Below, in pieces: positions 18,514-29,924 of a stretch of DNA of 38,566 nt. Within the stretch, counting starts at the first letter, position 1. Every line of letters starts with the position of its first letter. A program made the translations under genes and the position numbers. The notes below the pieces were generated by a model, which did not search any database, had not been told where the DNA came from, and saw nothing but the letters and a program-made list of their open reading frames with translations. The stretch is from Arthrobacter sp. H20. Lineage in GTDB: Bacteria; Actinomycetota; Actinomycetes; Actinomycetales; Micrococcaceae. The stretch lies in NCBI RefSeq assembly GCF_000520515.1, contig NZ_KI914730.1, forward strand, positions 8,227 through 46,792. The letters are read 5' to 3'.

Positions 18514-18561
18514 CTAGACATTGAATCTAAAGTCCACCGCATTCCGGCACAGAACAACCTC
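18514..18561 (-). repeat. Island repeat A: outermost attachment-like copy of ychF 3' end
   Basis: Read on the minus strand it encodes RNAVDFRFNV-stop. Positions 18518-18531 are identical to 29902-29915 inside resident ychF, including the AGA-TTC-AAT codon choice that inner copies lack, so this is best explained as the original end of ychF pushed away by insertion. The arm at 18541-18561 matches the inner copies instead. Core genes resume to its left. The rest of 18380-18583 holds no gene. Confidence 0.75.
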
Positions 18562-18583
18562 TTTACAGACGGACCTCGCAATC

Positions 18584-18922
18584 TCATTTAGCTGAAAGCG
18601 ACTGAATCTGTCGGCTAATCGCTGGCAGGTCGACGATCATCGTGTCCCAGACCGCGCCGTAGTCACTTCCCTCGTAGTGATGCGCCAGACGGTCCCGCAT
18701 CCGCTTGATCAAAGACCATGGCACTTCGGGATGCCGGCCGGTCGTGGCCTCGCTCAGACGAGCCACATTCTCCCCAATCTTGATGATTAGAGACTCTGCG
18801 GCGAGGCCCGGCACGTTGTCGGGGTCCCCGAGGTACCACTCGTCGCCGCGTGCCACGAGATTCGCGCCAACGCCACATAGCCGGAGGATCTCCCGCAGCG
18901 CCGCGCCATCCCGTTTATTCAT
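18584..18922 (-). CDS. hepT: HepT-like HEPN ribonuclease toxin (DUF86)
   Basis: A 112-residue all-helical HEPN protein. Seen: the catalytic R-x4-H-x-Y motif as Arg76, His81 and Tyr83 (RDRLAHHY), preceded by the family's LAAESLIIKIGENVARLSE helix. HepT proteins cleave RNA and are silenced when the partner nucleotidyltransferase adds AMP to the motif tyrosine. The start overlaps the partner's stop as ATGA, so the pair is translationally coupled, with the antitoxin gene first. It forms the whole cargo of the island module between repeats A and B. Confidence 0.88.
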   Translation of the reverse strand: MNKRDGAALREILRLCGVGANLVARGDEWYLGDPDNVPGLAAESLIIKIGENVARLSEATTGRHPEVPWSLIKRMRDRLAHHYEGSDYGAVWDTMIVDLPAISRQIQSLSAK

Positions 18923-19362
18923 ACAGCGACCGCCGTCGCCAAGATCTCATGATCGCCATGCAGGCCACCGTCGGTCACCACATCGACCTCGACGCCGAGG
19001 AGCTCACTCGCCTCTTCGGCGAACGCCGCGACTGTAAGCAGCCCGGTGCCGGGCGGGCGGGTGACCAGGATGTCCAGATCGCTACCGAAACTGTCCGTGC
19101 CACGAGCCGCGGAGCCGAAGACACGGACATTGTCGAAGCCATACCGGCCCGCAAGGTTCAAAAGGTCGGCACGGCGCGACGCCAGTGCATCATGAGGCAG
19201 CGGCCGCGCAGCTGCTTGCAAGCGCTCAAGCATCTCGACCGAGACACTGCGACGCCCAGACTCATAGGCTGCAACATTCGGCTGAGCAACCCCGGACCTC
19301 CGAGCAAGCTCGGCTTGGCTCAGGCCAGCAGCCTCGCGAAGCGCTCGAACCAGATTCACCAT
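18919..19362 (-). CDS. mntA: XRE-MntA fusion: nucleotidyltransferase antitoxin with helix-turn-helix
   Basis: A 147-residue two-domain protein. Residues 1-55 are an XRE helix-turn-helix (LREAAGLSQAELARRSGVAQPNVAAYESGRR); residues 65-147 are a minimal nucleotidyltransferase with GSx10DxD (Gly83, Ser84, Asp95, Asp97) and a third Asp127. MntA enzymes transfer AMP to HepT and neutralise it. The fused DNA-binding domain implies autoregulation, supported by a palindrome over the promoter (19372-19385). There is no Shine-Dalgarno sequence: a perfect TATAAT lies six bases before the ATG, so the transcript is predicted to start at the initiation codon. Confidence 0.88.
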   Translation of the reverse strand: MVNLVRALREAAGLSQAELARRSGVAQPNVAAYESGRRSVSVEMLERLQAAARPLPHDALASRRADLLNLAGRYGFDNVRVFGSAARGTDSFGSDLDILVTRPPGTGLLTVAAFAEEASELLGVEVDVVTDGGLHGDHEILATAVAV

Positions 19363-19368
19363 GGCTGA

Positions 19369-19385
19369 ATTATATCGTGTGATAT
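19369..19385 (-). promoter_or_regulatory. Leaderless promoter with overlapping palindromic operator
   Basis: The minus strand has TATAAT at 19369-19374, exactly six bases before the ATG at 19362. The palindrome ATATC-GTGT-GATAT (19372-19385) overlaps it, a good candidate binding site for the XRE domain of the gene it precedes. No convincing -35 was seen. Confidence 0.65.
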
Positions 19386-19445
19386 GAGTCCCGCGACAGC
19401 CTCCGGCGTCGGTCCGTCCGGCTGAAACAGCGCACCAGAAACCAA

Positions 19446-19493
19446 TTAGACGTTGAAGCGGAACTCAACCACGTTCCGTAGCCAAATAACCTC
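19446..19493 (-). repeat. Island repeat B
   Basis: On the minus strand it reads [14 protein letters not shown] (TAA). It aligns with repeat C over 48 positions without gaps and six mismatches, and with repeat A without gaps. It separates the HepT/MntA module from the ATPase module. Around it, 19386-19637 contains no gene I can support. Confidence 0.75.
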
Positions 19494-19637
19494 AATCTAG
19501 CCCCGCGGAAACGCCACGAGAAAAGCCGGGGGTGGGTGAGGGCAAGGAAGTCGGTAGTTCCGGTACTGCTAGCGTGAGTGGGTCAACCTACGAAACGCGT
19601 CAGTCGTTGCACTCGGATCGACCTTTGTCTCGCCCGA

Positions 19638-28084: not shown

Positions 28085-28493
28085 TTGCCGGAGCTCATCA
28101 CCGACCACTTCCTCTGCTAGATTTCGGGATCCCCTCAGCAAAGCGCCCTTCACTCCGTACTACGTTGCAAACCGGAATTCCACCACGTTCCGTAATCAAA
28201 TAGCCTCAGCAGCGATTCTTGCCCTGAATAACGTGCGACGCGCGTGATGTCGTGGCACACGTCTATCCAAGAGAAGAAGGCAACCGAAAGCATGCAAGGA
28301 GGACTGACAGAACGGCATCGAGTCTGTCGCAGGACTGCCACCGGCGCTGCACCCGGCGCAGTCGACATGTCAGGGGTTCGCGCTCATCGAAGAGGCCGGT
28401 TGCGTTGTTGTGCTGGTGGTCAAGGACTGTTTATTTCCGTCTTGCCACTCCCGTGCACGCCTACTCTCAATCGTCCAAGGTCAGTCGTGGTAA
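28085..28493. other. Gene-free stretch around repeat E
   Basis: After the DUF6602 stop there is no open frame with a start signal and recognisable content on either strand up to the hairpin at 28494. It contains repeat E at 28160-28207; 28208-28493 shows only unconvincing short frames. Confidence 0.5.
28160..28207 (-). repeat. Island repeat E
   Basis: Reads RNVVEFRFAT-stop on the minus strand; its last two codons before the stop differ from the other copies. It aligns with repeats B and C without gaps over 48 positions, including the TTCCGTA arm. It separates the DUF6602 module from the PIN-like module. Confidence 0.75.
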
Positions 28494-28535
28494 CGCCCCA
28501 GAACCTTTTACGGACTCGTAAAAGGTTCTGGGGCG
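28494..28535. terminator. Perfect 18-bp inverted repeat overlapping the end of the PIN-like gene
   Basis: Arms 28494-28511 and 28518-28535 are perfectly complementary with a six-base loop. The stop codon at 28508-28510 lies in the left arm and the last codons in the right arm, so the coding end is part of the hairpin. No T run follows on the minus strand. Probable terminator or 3'-stabilising stem. Confidence 0.65.
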
Positions 28536-29746
28536 AGCCGCTCCGACTGTGTCTTGGCACCGTCTCGACGAACTGCCGTAATTAAAGCGCCGAGTGAGGT
28601 GAAGACTGTTTCGCTCCTACCAAGGGCTCGTTGGGCTTCCCGGAGTTGCGTCCCGGTGTGTGTCTCAGCGCATACGTAGTTGGCGTACGCGGCCGCGCTG
28701 GAGAGGTGGAAGATGTCGATTAGGTCGTTCCGCCGCCACTTATTCTGGCGGTCTGTAAACCGACGCACAAATAGTTCGGACAGCAATCCGACCATTGGCG
28801 AAGCCGACAGCAGGCCAGCCACTTCTCGATCACTGAAGGTAGGGAAATCGAAGGAACGAGTCAATTTGCGGTATGGAGCAGTGTAAAAGCCGATGTTTTC
28901 GTTCCAGTACCGCCGACGCGCCAATTGTCGACGCTGACTTTTTGGAACGTTCTCTGTGTCCATCCGAGAGGTGATGCGGGCGTGGTGGTCGATCCACATC
29001 GTAAGTGGATGCTTGGGCATTGGTTCTGGATCGATGAGTGAGCTGAGGATGACATTTGGCATCGTGAGCATGGCCATGAATGTGTCAACATCTGTCGTTT
29101 CGTTGGCGATTCCCAACCTGGTGTCAAAGCCGAAGAGCGCGCCCGGCTCAGTGACGATGGGGTAAATGTGTCCAACCTCGGGAAGTCCAAGATGGCCCCG
29201 GATGGTTAGTTCGGCTTCCTGCTTCCAAAGGTCGAGCGGGTTCCGGATCTGCCATCCACCGGCTAGGGAAGCCATGGCTACGCCGACTTCATAGCGCCGT
29301 TCGTTGTGGAGGCCAGCTGTTTCCAGCATGTGGCCCATAGACAACGGCAAGACGATGCCTCCGTCGAGAGCCAGTTGGACCAAATCTTGTGCGGCTTGGC
29401 GCTCCCCTGGGTCGGCAATCCTCTCCGGGTCATGTAGCGCGTCAGAGACAGTCCGCCAGCGATTCTGATCGAGATAAACGGATGGTCGGCCATTGAAAGG
29501 CGGCGGAGAATTCGGATTGAATCCCTCCGTGATGATCAGGTGGCCGCGCGTGGTCGTCGAAATAATCCACCACTTCTCCCAGTCGAATGTCGAGTTGGCT
29601 ATTTGGGAGTTTCTTGGTGAAAACTTGGAATGCAGTTCGTCCTCTAGAATCTGGCCATCCTGGCACACAATCTTTATGGTGCCCTTCTGGAAGTCGACCT
29701 GCCAGTATTTGTATACATCTGTCGAGATCACGAACGCTTCGCCCAT
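28508..29746 (-). CDS. Large hypothetical protein, possible PIN-like nuclease
   Basis: A 412-residue protein not assignable to a named family by eye. The first about 80 residues form a beta-rich domain (YWQVDFQKGTIKIVC, THFDWEKWW-like pattern). After VYLDQNRW (Asp93) come a helix with Glu142 (SMGHMLETA) and, near the end, NDLIDIFHLSSAAAYANYVCAET with Asp341, Asp344 and Glu361; this spacing of acidic residues suggests a PIN-like RNase fold. That is an inference, not a proven match. TAACCT lies six bases before the ATG, with no ribosome binding site, so a leaderless transcript is likely. It is the only cargo between repeats E and F, directly next to ychF. The gap 29759-29874 holds no other gene. 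Confidence 0.6.
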   Translation of the reverse strand: MGEAFVISTDVYKYWQVDFQKGTIKIVCQDGQILEDELHSKFSPRNSQIANSTFDWEKWWIISTTTRGHLIITEGFNPNSPPPFNGRPSVYLDQNRWRTVSDALHDPERIADPGERQAAQDLVQLALDGGIVLPLSMGHMLETAGLHNERRYEVGVAMASLAGGWQIRNPLDLWKQEAELTIRGHLGLPEVGHIYPIVTEPGALFGFDTRLGIANETTDVDTFMAMLTMPNVILSSLIDPEPMPKHPLTMWIDHHARITSRMDTENVPKSQRRQLARRRYWNENIGFYTAPYRKLTRSFDFPTFSDREVAGLLSASPMVGLLSELFVRRFTDRQNKWRRNDLIDIFHLSSAAAYANYVCAETHTGTQLREAQRALGRSETVFTSLGALITAVRRDGAKTQSERLAPEPFTSP

Positions 29747-29752
29747 CTGAAC

Positions 29753-29758
29753 AGGTTA
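29753..29758 (-). promoter_or_regulatory. -10 element of probable leaderless promoter for the PIN-like gene
   Basis: TAACCT (TAnnnT type) ends six bases before the ATG at 29746. Confidence 0.45.
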
Positions 29759-29874
29759 ACCCCTGGTGGCAGGGACCCGTCGCTTGGCGTCCTATGCCGT
29801 CCGAACGATGACCGCGGTCGAGGTGAGCCCCGGAGGTGGTTGGAGACCCCCGACCGTCAACCAGCACATCGTCA

Positions 29875-29901
29875 CCAAACGTTGAACCGGAACTTGACTA
29901 C
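29875..29901 (-). repeat. Island repeat F, truncated and abutting the ychF stop
   Basis: Reads VVKFRFNVW on the minus strand, in a different frame from the ychF stop codon that lies inside it (29898-29900). From position 28 of the repeat onward the sequence is the resident ychF end instead of the arm seen in other copies. This is a junction between island and target gene. Confidence 0.6.
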
Positions 29902-29924
29902 ACATTGAATCTAAATTCCACCAC
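29898..29924 (-). repeat. Resident ychF end, the presumed attachment core
   Basis: The last nine codons of ychF ([12 protein letters not shown]). It matches repeat A at 23 of the first 25 positions; the exact match 29902-29915 to 18518-18531 is 14 bases long. Confidence 0.7.

Follow-up and report, generated by a model that had tools for sequence, protein, structure and literature searches.

What has assembled the island of small gene modules that lies 3' of ychF, the gene of a conserved GTPase, in Arthrobacter sp. H20? The window examined here is the whole stretch of 38,566 nucleotides that was analysed (contig NZ_KI914730.1, positions 8,227 to 46,792, assembly GCF_000520515.1). A preliminary description of this DNA had reported at least six direct repeats, all in the orientation of ychF, which partition the island into small modules. 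Our reading is that large serine recombinases (LSRs) of one family, with their attB at the 3' end of ychF, built the island as an accretion array, and we put the probability of this reading at about 0.78.

The YchF protein of the window ends in VEFRFNV*, and the last eight codons of its gene are GTG GAA TTT AGA TTC AAT GTG TAG. Five junctions are found 3' of the gene, each consisting of a left half of about 26 nt and a GT core, and all of them are oriented like ychF (Table 1). At four of the five, the sequence to the right of the core is a copy of the last codons of ychF, encoding VEFRFNV* or a peptide that differs from it at one or two residues. The junction with its core at 27111 is not a tail repeat, because its left half is present but the YchF tail is absent on the right. 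The right half of the outermost junction runs on into the native flank, and it is therefore probably the original ychF end of the host. A repeat search detected direct repeats at 18515, 19447, 21257, 28161, and 29876. The degenerate second tail copy directly after the ychF stop codon resembles the attP right half of LSR elements; a pattern of this type is present at 6 of 165 sites and in none of 825 control windows. When this copy and the ychF end are counted with the five junctions, the claim of at least six repeats in the ychF orientation holds.

The matrix used for the survey of other genomes was trained on such loci, and so the window was rescored with a matrix built from 61 sites of other genomes, with its own genome excluded. 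The five junctions then score between 29.8 and 49.0, and the ychF end scores 12.4. The next-best place on the same strand in 31 kb scores 6.6, and the opposite strand does not exceed 7.8. The consensus of 75 inner sites, in the ychF orientation, is ..cagAgGTT.tTcgG..aCGGAACGtG / GTgGAGTTCcG.TTCAAcGT.Tag, where the slash is the boundary between the halves. It is made up of a left half that is absent from ychF, GT, and then the last codons of ychF.

Are the displaced tails former gene ends? Junctions were picked by the left half alone, with a matrix that was still trained on sites originally found with tails. This gave 86 junctions at 14 bits, compared with 10 in three transformed copies taken together, and 69 of the 86 have a tail-like right half. 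The codons that have changed in displaced tails are synonymous in 136 of 170 cases (80%), where 19% is expected; the p-value of this test is not to be taken literally, because the sites are related by descent. An earlier count of 179 out of 221 came from a matrix trained partly on ychF ends, and 136 of 170 is the figure on which we rely. Exactly EFRFNV* is encoded by 42 displaced tails. Since the changes are mostly synonymous and the copies no longer lie in a ychF gene, the displaced tails are probably, to judge from their sequences, former ychF ends.

The sites recur in related genomes. A simple site pattern matches 21 of 97 genomes, the window's own included, and the reversed pattern matches none. 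With the survey matrix, the first 52 loci gave 115 forward matches above 14 bits, ychF ends counted in, and there was no match above 14 bits on the opposite strand or with the reversed control in 1.93 Mb (seven stretches in addition to the 93 ychF loci). At least one inner site is present in 33 of 93 ychF loci of the own and related genomes, and at least two are present in 20. Occupancy is 15 of 37 loci within the own genus, 12 of 21 elsewhere in the family, and 6 of 35 elsewhere in the order; these counts are lower bounds, because for many loci the reading covered only 20 kb or stopped at a contig end. For occupancy, matches below 28 bits were dropped (for example, 2 of the 10 inner sites of genome G041, and G031 at 24.5). 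One of the two matches in G056 (30.5), with a left half that resembles ychF itself, was removed by hand, and five junctions found by the left half only (G000, G035, G054, G068, and G081) were added. The 76 modules in 35 stretches have a median length of 1.9 kb and range from 0.2 to 33 kb. Runs may be dense: a stretch of 3 kb in G084 holds 5 inner sites, and one of 17 kb in G041 holds 10.

The preliminary description had predicted empty sites that join ychF to the glycosyltransferase region, and such sites exist. In G031, ychF joins the outer flank exactly at the core, and the window from its outermost core is 85% identical over 1.6 kb to G031 from its ychF core. The same flank follows ychF in G010, where the alignment starts 77 bp after the core in G010 and 144 bp after it in the window. 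Modules also recur in other genomes. The outermost module, M5, has a counterpart in G029 with 86.5% identical DNA over 883 bp; both stop at the end of the tail copy, and the other module end lies beyond the G029 contig. M5 is found at 71% identity in G054, with weaker protein matches in G041, G084, and locus L120, each between two sites, and in G017. Apart from the M5 proteins and the deaminase of module M3 (below), the proteins of the window have weak or no match in the compared loci. The whole-module differences that had been predicted are seen between species, not among strains of one species, with modules recurring beside same-type sites in other company. In locus L097 (G005:C11), the last 29 residues of HepT are matched at 7078–7164, just before an outer flank of the window type, and this is perhaps an older M5 insertion that has been partly lost.

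The breakpoints of these modules were compared in three sets (G050/G057, G012/G034/G033, and G003/G054, the last of which may equally be an empty-site comparison). In each set, the starts of modules or flanks are homologous from the core onwards, or from at most 5 bp to its left. Those five bases are ACGTG, common to both left halves, and the left sides are unrelated, being ychF in one case and a left half in the other. The inner module of G012 and the ychF-adjacent copy in G034 agree at 23 of 24 tail bases and are 81% identical over 426 bp from the core. G050 starts with an LSR-type right half, and its relative in G057 (74% identity over 706 bp) starts with a YchF tail, after which comes a vestige of that half. 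In the 426-bp and 706-bp comparisons the sequences were cut at the core, and the start of homology rests on the separate module-start alignments. A vestige of the LSR-type tail extension is present at 11 of 165 sites, two of these being LSR-type tails, compared with 4 of 2130 control windows. LSR right halves seem to turn into, or to acquire, YchF tails.

Which enzyme acts at this site? In G052, the end of ychF is altered and an LSR gene follows directly. Among the surveyed ychF loci, the family is also represented by a homologue in G001 and by pieces in G007 and G085. An LSR match in the stretch read was found at 4 of 9 loci with altered tails and at none of the 84 other loci. A wider scan covered one genome per species and could detect only proteins that contain either of two short peptides; its 62 loci are spread over Arthrobacter, Paenarthrobacter, Sinomonas, Brevibacterium, Gordonia, Corynebacterium, Rothia, Kocuria, Cutibacterium, Schaalia, Microbacterium, and other genera. 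Where the LSR is at least 40% identical to one of two queries, 31 of 50 loci include ychF, up to about 10 kb away; below 40%, none of 12 do. The YchF C-terminus is altered, for example to VVEFRSGLTSGGKK, in 30 of these 31 loci, and altered tails beside an LSR are the pattern expected of attL. A far-end site of the window type is also present in eight of them. In 8 LSR loci with both ends read, two of them with identical arms, the attP arms are inverted repeats at 14–18 of 25 places, in a comparison made without a control. The far-end left halves of the LSR loci are of the same kind as those in the window's junctions, so that a window-type site is the expected remainder of an integration at ychF. 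At L119 and L120 the far-end site lies 44 and 64 bp before the LSR, with further sites beyond, and the L120 stretch stops short of ychF. Two LSRs of related elements, P0002 and P0003, match both PF00239 and PF07508 above the cut-off.

A phage origin was considered and rejected: among LSR relatives from 368 phage and 135 plasmid records, none is at least 60% identical, the top listed being 31% (phage) and 26% (plasmid) identical. Viral contigs contained a single LSR match, at 23% identity, and one type of left-half pattern was without an exact match there. In G060, which has an altered ychF tail and no LSR in the stretch read, two adjacent LSR matches (G060:C1:307085 and 308561) lie about 32 kb downstream and are possibly a recombinase pair.

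From these comparisons we infer that the LSR family made the window's sites, that modules are excised and transferred, and that the array grows by an accretion cycle. An autonomous element would enter at the GT core. On its insertion, ychF would gain the element's right half, giving an altered C-terminus and attL, while the displaced YchF tail would end up at the distal boundary, following the left half of the element, giving attR. Further modules have far-end sites of the same type but no recombinase, and are most likely cis-mobilisable. The ychF-proximal LSR element and the modules behind it could be excised jointly, by recombination of the element's attL with a more distal attR, and could then enter another ychF. 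The element may later depart alone, and the modules left behind would keep the tail that they came with. L119 and L120, in which an LSR and its far-end site are followed by further sites, would be intermediate structures of such joint mobilisation.

Several observations weigh against this mechanism. Canonical LSR integration puts the element's right half at ychF, yet the array modules carry a YchF tail, and the accretion cycle accounts for the tails only if the modules had them beforehand. The window's assembly (94.6% complete, 88 contigs) has no match to PF07508, so the array is without a visible resident helper; the five PF00239 matches in this assembly are in frames of 195–222 residues. An LSR match of the ychF-associated family is present in only 4 of the 93 surveyed loci, two of these being pieces. 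Five of the nine altered tails have no LSR in the stretch read, and one of those five, KFNVSKS* in G093, is not of the LSR kind. In L147 (Rothia aeria), the sole exception among the 31 loci, the LSR adjoins a ychF with an intact tail, and 19 of the 50 LSR loci have no ychF within the fetched stretch. Furthermore, all of the comparisons are between species, and no single event has been caught. On balance, we favour accretion, and we regard a direct reaction of the hybrid sites as its main rival.

In that rival explanation, module circles with a hybrid site, consisting of the attP left half, GT, and the YchF tail, recombine directly with the ychF end by means of the LSR or a relative. Since the reaction would yield once more a ychF end and that hybrid site, it would rebuild ychF at each insertion and would be reversible without a directionality factor. 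The hybrid form of 69 of the 86 junctions found by their left half speaks for this rival, as do tails that travel with their modules (G012 and G034, 23 of 24 tail bases) and small modules in runs (G084 and G041). Phage serine integrases, however, are not normally known to recombine such hybrid sites; 89 of the 93 loci have no family LSR in the stretch read, and neither a circle nor a strain-level event was seen. We therefore consider this explanation possible but rather unlikely. We propose with the same reserve what it would imply, an actinobacterial serine-recombinase counterpart of the integron, with recombinase-less, often gene-sized cassettes whose hybrid sites carry synonymous last codons of YchF, and with LSRs that visit in trans. 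If this were true, each insertion would swap and rebuild the C-terminus of a conserved GTPase and regenerate the landing site, while the previous ychF ending would be filed as the next cassette boundary, making the junctions a readable record of insertion.

Other enzymes could be imagined at this site. With tyrosine integrases, gene end and far-end repeat are typically identical over about 20 bp, and this counts in favour of a family of tyrosine integrases or phage satellites whose core is identical to the ychF end. Such enzymes are encoded elsewhere in all 33 occupied genomes, but in none of the 33 does Phage_integrase exceed the Pfam cut-off in the ychF stretch. The sole match in a ychF stretch is a 92-residue remnant in G007 with 21.9 bits, below the cut-off, and the results for viral contigs given above, both for the left-half pattern type and for LSRs, also speak against this family, which makes it a very improbable maker. 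(A profile match for a tyrosine recombinase in G017 did not persist with a profile of 10 seeds of the correct length.) Transposition with a target duplication of about 20 bp at the ychF end, casposon-like and with the inverted halves as terminal repeats, would explain why some modules (G008 and G084) start with a tail and an inverted copy of the left half, resembling a terminal inverted repeat and a duplication. By the pattern used, such starts are found at only 6 of 165 sites, and the altered tails at 30 of 31 LSR loci are no duplication. Cas1 is encoded in 2 of the 33 occupied genomes, in neither case near ychF; DDE enzymes were not searched for. We give transposition very little credence. 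Homologous recombination in ychF and the flank could swap whole islands, and the repeats might then be its decayed by-products at an ordinary variable locus. It creates no left half that ychF lacks, though, nor does it confine the junctions of different genera to a few bases around a single dinucleotide, and we find this origin the hardest of all to believe. The accretion array made by LSRs remains our preferred reading.

What does the array carry? The junctions divide positions 18538–29921 of the window into five modules, M1 to M5 (Table 1). The earlier view that the repeats bound small gene modules is borne out in this respect, but the deaminase and glycosylase genes share one module, and no site was found between them. 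The 412-residue protein of M1 has no Pfam, PADLOC, or NCBIfam match. Its homologues, with 27–40% identity, are found in 7 of 72,556 plasmid records (Streptomyces and Arthrobacter). It had been called PIN-like, a label that the family searches do not support; its single-sequence fold has a mean pLDDT of 34.9, too low to speak for or against it. The M2 protein matches PF20247 at 2.3e-23, and its PADLOC matches are NucC-like. The M3 deaminase has a 69% identical protein in the Bifidobacterium locus L122, where an LSR directly follows ychF. The M4 ATPase matches PF13191 at 2.4e-5, which is under the curated cut-off. Family searches found no recombinase among the module proteins of the window, and the window has no RNA family at gathering thresholds and no tRNA or tmRNA. 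On another contig of the window's assembly, a second MGDG-synthase-like gene has a sequence resembling a site next to it (G000:C16:51155, locus L099).

Table 1. Junctions, modules, and genes in the window; scores are from the matrix that excludes the window's genome, and ORF is open reading frame.
Feature	Position	Strand	Description
ychF, target gene	29898..30983	-	last 8 codons right of left half-site; core GT 29920-29921
Degenerate second tail copy	29874..29899	-	directly 3' of ychF stop; TCAAGTTCCGGTTCAACGTTTG
Junction, core 28182	28160..28211	-	left half, GT, tail VEFRFAT*; score 43.3
Tail-less junction, core 27111	27088..27140	-	left half, GT, GGGGTTCCGTGACGG, attP-like right half; score 29.8
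Junction, core 21278	21256..21307	-	left half, GT, VEFRFNV*; score 49.0
Junction, core 19468	19446..19497	-	left half, GT, VEFRFNV*; score 46.3
Outermost junction, core 18536	18514..18565	-	right half VDFRFNV*; score 34.3
Module M1	28184..29921	-	1738 bp; single 412-residue ORF 28508-29746(-)
Module M2	27113..28183	+	1071 bp; DUF6602 nuclease-like ORF 27185-28084(+)
Module M3	21280..27112	mixed	5833 bp; five ORFs
M3 ORF	26775-27074	-	99 residues
M3 ORF	24681-26609	-	DUF262/GmrSD-like
M3 ORF	24053-24640	-	mismatch glycosylase-like
M3 ORF	22718-23644	+	cytidine-deaminase-like
M3 ORF	21441-22607	-	NTase-nucleosidase; start uncertain
Module M4	19470..21279	-	1810 bp; AAA/ORC-like ATPase 19638-20852(-)
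Module M5	18538..19469	-	932 bp; XRE-MntA 18919-19362(-), HepT 18584-18922(-)
Outer flank	16940..18379	-	MGDG-synthase-like glycosyltransferase; adjoins ychF in G031 and G010

Conflict-type genes had been reported in every interval. At a threshold of 1e-5, 112 module ORFs match 180 PADLOC models, compared with 26 models for 112 flank ORFs; these figures are not gene counts, because the models overlap. The cargo thus matches far more defence models than the flanks, but it is not only defence, since Pfam also finds photolyase-related proteins, dehydrogenases, and TetR. The module set began with 114 ORFs from modules of up to 7.5 kb, from which one unmapped ORF and three spurious overlapping frames of the window were removed and to which the two M5 genes were added. 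The flank set was a random 125 out of 383 ORFs, less one unmapped, four long, and the last eight. A small inverted motif, CGTTATTGACG, stands directly after the tail in several modules and perhaps marks one widespread module type; in oriented coordinates it lies at G001b 6739, G033 9586, G041 3763 and 10799, L119 9356, and L158 9949. In G032, two sites 5.7 kb apart, with cores near 3149 and 8895 (L098, G032:C29:1-20000), are not on the contig that carries ychF, and the 20 kb behind ychF has no sites; the pair is either a second target or an assembly matter. The site-bearing contigs L095 (G001:C40) and L094 (G017:C40) are candidates for the continuation of the broken ychF contigs, which they fit.

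How does the array compare with known systems? We read the ychF island as resembling the staphylococcal cassette chromosome (SCC) and the ssrA islands of Dehalococcoides, at a different target; cassette chromosomes and ssrA islands are the nearest precedents found. SCC and the Enterococcus cassette chromosome (ECC) share with it LSRs, the 3' end of a conserved gene, far-end direct repeats, multiple attR, which are described for 16 of 32 ECCs, and defence genes in the cargo; they differ in their rlmH target and their CcrA/CcrB pair (PMC6222049). On the CcrB model, with its cut-off of 900, the LSRs of related ychF loci reach 62 and 81 bits. The likeness to SCC drawn in the preliminary description is therefore one of working, with LSRs tied to the site, and not one of membership, as the target is another and the recombinases are far under the Ccr cut-offs. 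The Dehalococcoides islands, as described, lie in tandem 3' of one single-copy gene, with a 20-bp gene-end repeat and a 15-bp motif absent from the gene; 16 of 31 have an integration module that includes a large serine recombinase, and cis-mobilisation is suggested for the remaining 15 (PMC3146451). The ychF arrays are alike in having tandem islands 3' of one gene, a gene-end repeat with an extra motif, and an LSR in part of the cases, whereas the Dehalococcoides islands have a tmRNA target, a two-recombinase module, and cargo rich in reductive dehalogenases (PMC3146451). The concept of cis-mobilisable elements, as used in that report, likewise fits modules that bear att sites and lack a recombinase behind an autonomous element (PMC3146451). 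The ychF arrays are set apart from the Dehalococcoides islands by a protein-gene target, a median module length of 1.9 kb, and former coding ends as boundaries, and from cis-mobilisable elements by modules that are often gene-sized and a site that includes part of the host gene's coding sequence. Integrons and pdif modules also form runs of small modules between same-oriented sites, but they use tyrosine recombinases and other sites. No tyrosine recombinase above the Pfam cut-off lies beside the arrays in the ychF stretches of the 33 occupied genomes. Pneumococcal prophages integrate beside ychF as well, but upstream of it, in the intergenic region, with repeats of 14–26 bp, and the relevant parts of those reports mention no array (PMC6375853, PMC8637289, PMC10383233). 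In the open-access literature, with subscription papers and preprints outside the scope, we found no description of the ychF 3' end as an integration site and no element family with this target, in agreement with the preliminary description; a Rhodococcus study employs ychF as a marker gene.

These results indicate that the ychF 3' end is, in many actinobacterial genera, a hotspot of insertion that has a dedicated recombinase family. The interval from ychF to the last copy of its tail is a place to look for small, unnamed defence modules, and the former gene ends offer a rare chance to put insertions in order. The handling of hybrid, self-regenerating sites by LSRs becomes a directly testable question, and an LSR family specific for ychF, whose attB and attP can be read, may provide a genetic tool for actinobacteria.

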